From Halapricum desulfuricans (lineage in GTDB: Archaea > Halobacteriota > Halobacteria > Halobacteriales > Haloarculaceae): a stretch of 64,000 nt of DNA. The notes under the pieces were generated by a model. It was not told the origin of the DNA. It saw nothing but the letters and a program-made list of their open reading frames with translations, and did not search any database. The first letter of the stretch is position 1. Every line of letters starts with the position of its first letter. The translations under genes were made by a program, and so were the position numbers. The DNA lies in the NCBI RefSeq assembly GCF_017094525.1, contig NZ_CP064788.1, positions 1,845,030-1,909,029 on the forward strand, in the 5' to 3' direction. Shown piece by piece: positions 13,632-46,610 of the stretch.

Positions 13632-13753
13632 GGCGAACCGGGGACGCGGGTTTTTATATGATCGGTGCCGGAACCGCAGTCTGATGACAGTATGTGACCG
13701 TTCGTACGGTCGAATAGGGTGGGAATCGCAGGCCAACCGCCGGTCCAGCGATC

Positions 13754-13833
13754 ATACTGCCGGCTGTAACAAACTGAAGGAATTCGCCACCCTGGGGTGG
13801 CGAATATCTTTACGAACTTACAGCCGGCAGTAT
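13754..13833. repeat. 80-bp palindromic element, copy A
   Basis: Perfect 16-bp outer inverted repeat ATACTGCCGGCTGTAA (13754-13769) and its complement (13818-13833). A 12-nt left spacer, a 24-nt inner hairpin (arms 13782-13792 and 13795-13805) and a 12-nt right spacer ATCTTTACGAAC lie between. The same 16+12+24+12+16 layout occurs at 34945-35024. It ends 19 bp before the start codon of the next gene, so it may fold in the transcript leader. No target-site duplication is visible. Confidence 0.85.
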
Positions 13834-13852
13834 CAGCTGGTAGGGGGACGCG

Positions 13853-20608: not shown

Positions 20609-20630
20609 CGAGCGTGTGGTCCCGCGCTTG

Positions 20631-20712
20631 ATAGTGACCGTTGTGACGATTCGCCGGTGCGACCGCACGACAGCGTGTGGCCGACCCGGAACGGACGTAC
20701 AACGGTCAGTAT
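20631..20712. repeat. Candidate degenerate copy C of the palindromic element
   Basis: Outer arms ATAGTGACCGTTGT (20631-20644) and ACAACGGTCAGTAT (20699-20712) pair with one mismatch over 14 bp. The span is 82 bp, and an inner imperfect hairpin lies around CCGCACG and GCGTGTGG. Ends (ATA.TG and CAGTAT) match copies A and B, but the internal conserved block is weak. Confidence 0.45.
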
Positions 20713-20762
20713 GAATAGCCGGTGACCGAAGGATTATCCAGCCGGAACCCGAAGGGAACGAC

Positions 20763-34924: not shown

Positions 34925-34944
34925 CCGGCGGGATACTCTCGCTG

Positions 34945-35024
34945 ATACTGGTGGCTATACCATTTCGAAATGATCTGGCACGCCGTCGTGCCAGATACCT
35001 TTCCGAACGTATAGCCACCAGTAT
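34945..35024. repeat. 80-bp palindromic element, copy B
   Basis: Perfect 16-bp outer inverted repeat ATACTGGTGGCTATAC (34945-34960) and its complement (35009-35024). The 12-nt left spacer CATTTCGAAATG is itself a palindrome. An inner 24-nt hairpin follows (arms 34973-34982 and 34987-34996), then the right spacer ACCTTTCCGAAC. It matches copy A in every segment length. Four arm positions differ from copy A, and each change is compensated on the other arm. It lies between purD and the metallo-hydrolase gene. Confidence 0.85.
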
Positions 35025-35070
35025 GAATGGCACCGACACGCACAAGCAGCCCCTGGCCGTACGAGCGGAC

Positions 35071-35649
35071 ATGATAACGAACCTCGCGGCTGGCGAACAG
35101 GTCTTTACGAGCAACGTCTTTCTCGTCACTGGCGACCGAACCGTCCTGATCGACGTCGGCAACGACTTCGATGTCTGTGGGGCCGTGCGCGAGCACGTCG
35201 AGGACATCGACGCGGTGGTGCTCACCCACACCCACCCCGATCACGTCGGGAACCTCGAACGCGTCGTCGAGACCTTCGAGGTCGAGGTCTGGGGGTACGA
35301 CCCCGACCAGGCGGGCGTCGATCACGCTATCGCGGACGGCGAGACGGTCCGGATCGGCGACGACGCCTACACCGCGTTGCACACGCCGGGCCACAAGGAC
35401 GATCACCTCTGCTTTTTCGCAGCGGGACCGGGTGTCCTGTTCGCGGGCGATCTGATCTTCGCCAACGGCGGGTTCGGCCGGACCGACCTCGCGGACGGCG
35501 ATCGGGAGTTGTTGATCGAGAGTATCGAGCGAGTTCGGGAGACGACCGACGAGACGCTCGCGGCGTTGTATTGTGGCCACGGCCCGAGCGTCGAGGACCG
35601 TCCGTACGAACACGTCGAACTCGCGGCCCAGGCCGCCCGGTTCGGGTAG
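35071..35649 (+). CDS. MBL-fold metallo-hydrolase
   Basis: A 192-residue metallo-beta-lactamase-fold protein with metal ligands THTHPDHVG (about 49-57), HTPGHKDDH, the bridging aspartate in LFAGDLIFANGG, and CGHGPSVED at the end. This is the short hydroxyacylglutathione-hydrolase-like form; the substrate is unknown. The ATG at 35071 (MITNLAAGEQVFTSN) is typical of haloarchaeal homologues. An alternative ATG at 35023 would overlap the last two bases of palindromic element B and add 16 residues. Confidence 0.88.
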   Translation: MITNLAAGEQVFTSNVFLVTGDRTVLIDVGNDFDVCGAVREHVEDIDAVVLTHTHPDHVGNLERVVETFEVEVWGYDPDQAGVDHAIADGETVRIGDDAYTALHTPGHKDDHLCFFAAGPGVLFAGDLIFANGGFGRTDLADGDRELLIESIERVRETTDETLAALYCGHGPSVEDRPYEHVELAAQAARFG

Positions 35650-46536: not shown

Positions 46537-46610
46537 GGGCCAATAGCTCAGTCAGGTTGAGCGCTCGGCTGATAACCGGGAGGTCCGCGGTTCAAATCCG
46601 CGTTGGCCCA
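46537..46610 (+). tRNA. tRNA-Ile (anticodon GAT)
   Basis: A 74-nt cloverleaf. The acceptor stem pairs GGGCCAA with TTGGCCC (46603-46609), the discriminator is A46610, the D-loop region is TAGCTCAGTCAGGTTGAGC, and the anticodon stem CTCGG/CCGGG encloses loop CTGATAA with anticodon GAT. The T-arm has GCGG, TTCAAAT and CCGC. CCA is not encoded, as usual in haloarchaea. It marks the left side of an accessory region. Confidence 0.97.

Follow-up and report, generated by a model that had tools for sequence, protein, structure and literature searches.

Short repeats of bacteria such as RUP and ERIC are attributed to enzymes of the IS630/Tc1-mariner type, for which the textbook rule in IS630 is a 2-bp TA target duplication. 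Transposition by Y1 enzymes, on the other hand, produces no target repeat. In Methanosarcina mazei, five copies of an 89-bp ISMma9-related MITE, with a 16-bp terminal repeat and an IS630 relationship, have been listed (PMC3852290), and this kind of element is therefore already known. The SMR-A and SMR-B elements of Haloquadratum walsbyi are described as having no target duplication and ends unrelated to transposons, and as preferring other mobile elements (PMC3119063). Fot elements, which belong to the wider IS630-Tc1-mariner group, are reported to make three-base TAA duplications (PMC7386202). Our literature search found no paper joining IS630, TNA and target site.

The window analysed here is a stretch of 64,000 nucleotides from Halapricum desulfuricans. 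It contains two 80-bp palindromes, at 13754-13833 and 34945-35024, which we interpret, with a probability of about 0.86, as copies of a MITE built from IS630-type (DDE_3) ends, which is moved in trans, inserts at TNA and tends to survive in stop codons. The 80 bp consist of a 78-bp unit (13755-13832 in the first copy) and the adjoining A and T. The features of the window are:

13752-13754, no strand: left TCA target repeat of the first copy, recognised from the equal TNA flanks of most copies and the empty site in the sister species G001
13755-13832, + strand: 78-bp MITE of subfamily A, TACTGCCGGCTGTAA...TTACAGCCGGCAGTA, recognised from the genome copies and its absence at the orthologous G001 site
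13833-13835, no strand: right TCA target repeat of the first copy, recognised from flank comparison and the G001 empty site
20632-20711, no strand: MITE of sister family D, TAGTGACCGTTGT...ACGGTCAGTA, the third in the window and missed in the original prediction, with the same layout and absent at the orthologous G001 site
34943-34945, no strand: left TGA target repeat of the second copy, recognised from flank comparison
34946-35023, + strand: 78-bp MITE of subfamily B, TACTGGTGGCTATAC...GTATAGCCACCAGTA, recognised from the pattern and covariance-model copies
35024-35026, no strand: right TGA target repeat of the second copy, recognised from flank comparison

Structure, copy number and related families

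The layout given in the original prediction was reproduced on both copies. Each is 80 bp long and divided 16-12-24-12-16, with a perfect outer stem of 16 bp and a separate inner hairpin within bases 29-52 (stem of 11 bp in the 13754 copy and 10 bp in the 34945 copy). The four outer-stem differences between them (positions 7, 8, 13 and 16), all of them compensated on the opposite arm, were also recovered, as was the conservation of the right spacer in 10 of 12 bases (ATCTTTACGAAC in the 13754 copy, ACCTTTCCGAAC in the 34945 copy). The inner hairpins had been described as unrelated. This is true of the two main subfamilies but not throughout, since the copies at 888981 and 1712921 are intermediates, with ends of the first type and a core resembling the second. 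At the right edge of the 34945 copy, two element bases (35023-35024) and G35025 of the TGA form an ATG in frame with ORF 34951-35649. The ORF downstream of this copy (35023-35649) carries a metallo-beta-lactamase-like HTHPDHVG motif.

In the host genome, a single chromosome of 2.89 Mb, a gapped pattern derived from the two palindromes had 50 exact matches, and the reversed control had none. The genome-wide covariance search that had been proposed as a check, made with a model built from 16 variants, located the repeat after inspection at at least 100 distinct places in the host chromosome. As scoring covered only 150 candidates, this number is a minimum, and the many further copies cannot be attributed to chance. 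The 16-bp outer inverted repeat was perfect in 49 of 90 copies. Fourteen host copies were identical to one another, which suggests recent spread. The element is thus transposase-free, short (78 bp), multicopy (about 100 host places) and bounded by terminal inverted repeats of 16 bp, as MITEs are. The repeat model matched 28 of 59 genomes, nearly all of them in the host's family, with a range from 0 to at least 79 matches per genome. A BLAST search of the repeat against phage records gave no match. Lone ends in low-copy genomes were considered as possible IS ends and rejected, as they had the appearance of decayed copies.

A search of the host DNA examined for TNA-flanked palindromes recovered sister families of equal size and layout with other outer stems (ATACGGTCGGTTGTA, 81 bp; ATAGTGACCGTTGTA, 82 bp; ATCGTGGTTGCTGTA, 82 bp). 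Their spacers also differ from those of the two palindromes and are common among themselves. The MITE at 20631-20712 in the window belongs to one of these families. The ATAGTGACCGTTGTA family had 55 end matches in the host. A chimeric repeat (L404:1401-1478), in which the left half of this group is joined at the inner hairpin to the right half of family C, suggests recombination between families at the hairpin. A TNA-flanked palindrome of 99 bp in genome G002 (L102:995-1093), whose ends are different (TAGGGATTATCGTAG...), is possibly a further MITE family. Three pairs of MITEs lie one base apart in the host (658664/658745, 2375698/2375779 and 1395639/1395720), with the N of the target triplet common to both members, as if one had entered the TNA repeat of the other. 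Two MITE copies (L095 / host 2844056 and 193434) were broken just after the GAAC(G) of the right spacer, and the interrupting sequence resembles an ISH8-like end (CATCCGT).

Target repeats, empty sites and stop codons

It had been stated that no target duplication was visible. This was incorrect, as the 13754 copy is flanked by a TCA repeat and the 34945 copy by a TGA repeat. Of the 76 host copies with intact ends, 73 have identical bases on the two sides of the element within T-N...N-A, against 30 expected from composition. In the host copies this N nearly always has a T before it and an A after it, and a filled site reads TNA-TACTG…CAGTA-TNA. Since nearly all intact copies have identical TNA flanks, the mobile unit is 78 bp long; the 3-bp length of the duplication assumes that the flanking A and T belong to the target, the sequence alone proving a duplication of at least N. 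The target consensus is palindromic, roughly GACTNAGTC. The family D MITE (20631-20712) has a TGA target repeat at 20629-20631 and 20712-20714.

An independent set of 72 units was collected by exact motif from GTDB genomes, namely those of Halomicrobium katesii, Haloarcula vallismortis, Haloarcula mannanilytica, one Haloarcula MAG and several Halobacteriales MAGs. Sixty-eight of these units were exactly 78 bp long and 69 had an identical TNA on both sides. Among 76 GTDB loci, two long-range pairs were without matching triplets, one of them being the chimeric L404, and those loci yielded no IS630 gene.

Three copies, from different subfamilies, share one insertion point in a family-C repeat, and uninterrupted family-C repeats elsewhere in the host hold a single TAA at that point. 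In the sister species G001, flanks with 89-97% identity align straight across the 13754 and 20631 sites and leave one triplet at each (CCA at the 13754 site, through a T-to-C difference). The orthologous site of the 34945 copy was not found among the relatives examined. The five empty sites (three in family C and two in G001) show precise insertion, and because none of them has a second TA, the classical IS630 reading of a TA duplication is excluded. A target duplication and precise empty sites are further properties of a MITE. Together with the copies at 100 or more places and the patchy occurrence, they bear out the earlier suggestion of a mobile miniature element.

The position of the copies relative to genes showed a regularity that was not expected. 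Among the 80 host copies with a clean repeat, 30 overlapped a gene of a simple codon-usage model, in each case by a single base, which is the first or the last of the 80 bp and completes a TGA or TAA stop. This is the original stop, because the empty site has the same triplet in the same frame. On the Halomicrobium plasmid pLC1Hm-01 (RefSeq annotation), five of 11 copies ended in a stop codon and none was inside a gene, and in the GTDB set 24 of 55 copies were in a stop codon and one was inside a gene. Four more plasmid copies (Haloarcula, Halomicrobium) showed the one-base overlap, though these were chosen because a gene lay under the match.

We observed 52 stop-codon copies where 23.8 were expected from a uniform choice among the TNA sites of the same gap. 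One sub-question within the MITE reading, rather than an alternative to it, is whether the pattern is wholly one of survival, with random TNA insertion followed by loss from genes and promoters. We lean towards this account, as only one of the tested copies was inside a called CDS and the excess in convergent gaps, which have no promoters, was small (19 observed, 13.9 expected with the target-preference model). Against it, over all gaps the 52 copies still exceeded the 30.7 expected with the element's target matrix (P about 1e-9), and the excess remained after promoter-proximal DNA had been left out (P 5e-4 to 2e-3). From these counts, target preference and the avoidance of harm in coding DNA account for a large part of the stop-codon pattern, though not for all of it, and active targeting is only a possibility. 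A stronger proposal is that a lineage of haloarchaeal IS630-type transposons and their MITEs evolved TNA-specific integration, with stop codons, regenerated by the 3-bp duplication, as preferred safe harbours beyond local sequence preference. We consider it rather unlikely.

Candidate source of the ends

A family-wide search for DDE_3 transposases recovered L295, a 1114-bp autonomous element from a genome (G016) that belongs to the host's family but to another genus and in which the repeat model itself matched 55 times. L295 has TCA on both sides and inverted repeats of at least 27 bp (TACTATCGGCTGAAAGTTCGTGAGCAG), and encodes a single frame of 340 aa, a DDE_3 transposase (NF033545 (IS630), 241 bits with a cut-off of 100; PF13358 (DDE_3), 111 bits). 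Its end CACGAACTTTCAGCCGATAGTAT agrees with the right end of the MITE, TACGAACTTACAGCCGGCAGTAT, in 22 of 32 bases, a value that no shuffle reached (n=20,000). Both ends of L306 are identical to the MITE end in 21 of 32 bases, again without an equally good shuffle (n=20,000). The MITE therefore has ends in common with an autonomous transposon, but because the identity is partial and not near-identical, L295 is a relative and not the parent.

Ten further haloarchaeal IS630-type elements had TNA repeats and TAC or TAG ends. They include L332 (Haloarcula sinaiiensis) and L334 (Halorubrum salinarum); one relative, L333, was without a matching triplet. The TA duplication of IS630 is absent here, since the empty sites hold one TNA and the autonomous relatives likewise have TNA. 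The element is consequently classified as having "IS630-type ends" and not as a canonical IS630 MITE.

Given the end match with L295 and the relatives that make TNA repeats, the repeat is best read as fused left and right ends. We suggest that the MITE represents the two ends of an IS630-type element, about 40 bp each, in a head-to-head fusion. The transposase is predicted to recognise, as ends, the outer 16 bp (TACTG...) together with the subterminal CGAAC. The conserved right spacer, with its CGAAC, is the inner part of the transposon end, and the inner hairpin would consist of two inner end segments facing each other. We infer that an IS630-type transposase moves or moved these copies. Acting in trans, it would excise the unit and insert it at T-N-A, favouring the palindromic consensus and duplicating the TNA triplet. 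TGA and TAA stops are TNA sites in the favoured context, where the duplication rebuilds the stop, so that insertion there would be harmless and such copies would survive and accumulate.

The host genome yielded no DDE_3 gene bearing such ends, and G001 has many MITE copies and no DDE_3 match whatever. As neither genome yielded a transposase that has these ends, mobilisation in the host is putative or past. The mobilising enzyme may have been lost, may be too divergent or may reside on an element outside these assemblies; in G001 the family is apparently orphaned. IS4/IS5-type transposases of the host and its relatives (PF01609, PF13586) were rejected as a source, as none had these ends, and so was L095, which is an ISH8-like IS inside a MITE. 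L261, where an IS630 gene lies between family-D ends at 1.19 kb, was rejected as the parent. Three other copies of that IS are without these ends, and L261 is therefore an IS that entered a family-D MITE at its hairpin loop.

A 1113-bp IS630-family element was present in the host near 131 kb, 235 kb, 2231 kb and 2819 kb (L261:2044-3156, L264, L268 and L271), with the TIR GAGTGGTC and a transposase in two overlapping frames. All four copies were at the centre of a palindrome, without obvious target duplication, and the element seems to pick hairpin loops.

Alternative readings and comparison with known systems

Selection on structure had been proposed from the matched stem differences. An RNA leader, a terminator or a nucleoid site whose folding is maintained by selection would be consistent with the perfect outer stem and its two-sided subfamily differences, the inner hairpin and the mostly intergenic copies. 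However, among the 80-bp copies of the two subfamilies, private substitutions were as common in the outer stem (0.018 and 0.016 per site) as in the spacers (0.010-0.024), and of the 63 private changes at paired sites, 54 disrupt the pairing. Structure passes to each new copy and then decays. The paired outer-stem differences distinguish the subfamilies within a terminal inverted repeat, as expected where one enzyme has to recognise both ends. Copies were found after, before and between genes in mixed orientation, and the only favoured gene-relative place, the stop codon, is occupied in both orientations. The only Rfam match over the gathering score in the window was a tRNA at 46537-46610, with none at the repeat. 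Selection on folding, and with it the suggested nucleoid or termination site or RNA leader, is thus unsupported, and the target repeats and empty sites also argue against it. We give it a very small probability.

Two other kinds of mobile repeat were considered. Repeats of the REP/REPIN kind, for which the mobilising enzyme is a tyrosine transposase (RAYT, IS200-type), are also numerous, palindromic and intergenic, and the adjacent inverted pairs seen here (658664/658745) are like BIMEs. A target repeat with a variable N is nevertheless at odds with Y1 transposition, and the ends match DDE-type elements, which makes this the least probable of the explanations. A small mobile repeat of the Haloquadratum type (SMR), with a mechanism unrelated to any transposon, would agree in size (about 110 bp, with HqIRS41 at 80 bp), in having inverted terminal repeats and many copies, and in lacking a transposase (PMC3119063). 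By description, however, SMRs have no target duplication and transposon-unlike ends, and the present repeat is the opposite on both points; on this comparison, made by description only, we assign the SMR explanation a low probability.

Under the MITE reading, a palindrome that had no explanation becomes a defined family, and since its autonomous relatives occur in haloarchaea that are in culture (Haloarcula, Halorubrum), transposition is testable. It documents an IS630-type branch with TNA instead of TA duplication and points to a simple route by which a mobile element could become nearly harmless, namely by entering a stop codon and rebuilding the stop. It would also account for dozens to hundreds of 80-bp palindromes in the genomes of this family, which could pass for RNA or regulatory elements.

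Among the known systems, RUP and ERIC are likewise short palindromic MITEs, but they are bacterial, have other sequences and make a TA duplication. REP/REPIN elements resemble the present repeats as many-copy intergenic palindromes with paired inverted neighbours and differ in being moved by tyrosine transposases without the target duplication that is present here. SMR-A and SMR-B are similar in size (80-110 bp), inverted terminal repeats, copy number and lack of a transposase; the TNA duplication, the IS630-type ends and the mostly intergenic or stop-codon positions set our elements apart from the SMR description. The haloarchaeal IS630 elements L295, L332 and L334 have in common with them a terminal TACTnnCGGCTG or similar, a subterminal GTTCGTGA-like motif and the TNA repeat, whereas they are 1.07-1.11 kb long with a transposase gene and the MITEs encode nothing. 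The ISMma9-related MITE of M. mazei is alike in being very short and without a transposase, with 16-bp terminal inverted repeats and IS630-type ends. It is found in a different host and has no recorded duplication, while the present family has about 20 times more copies, a TNA duplication and stop-codon positions.
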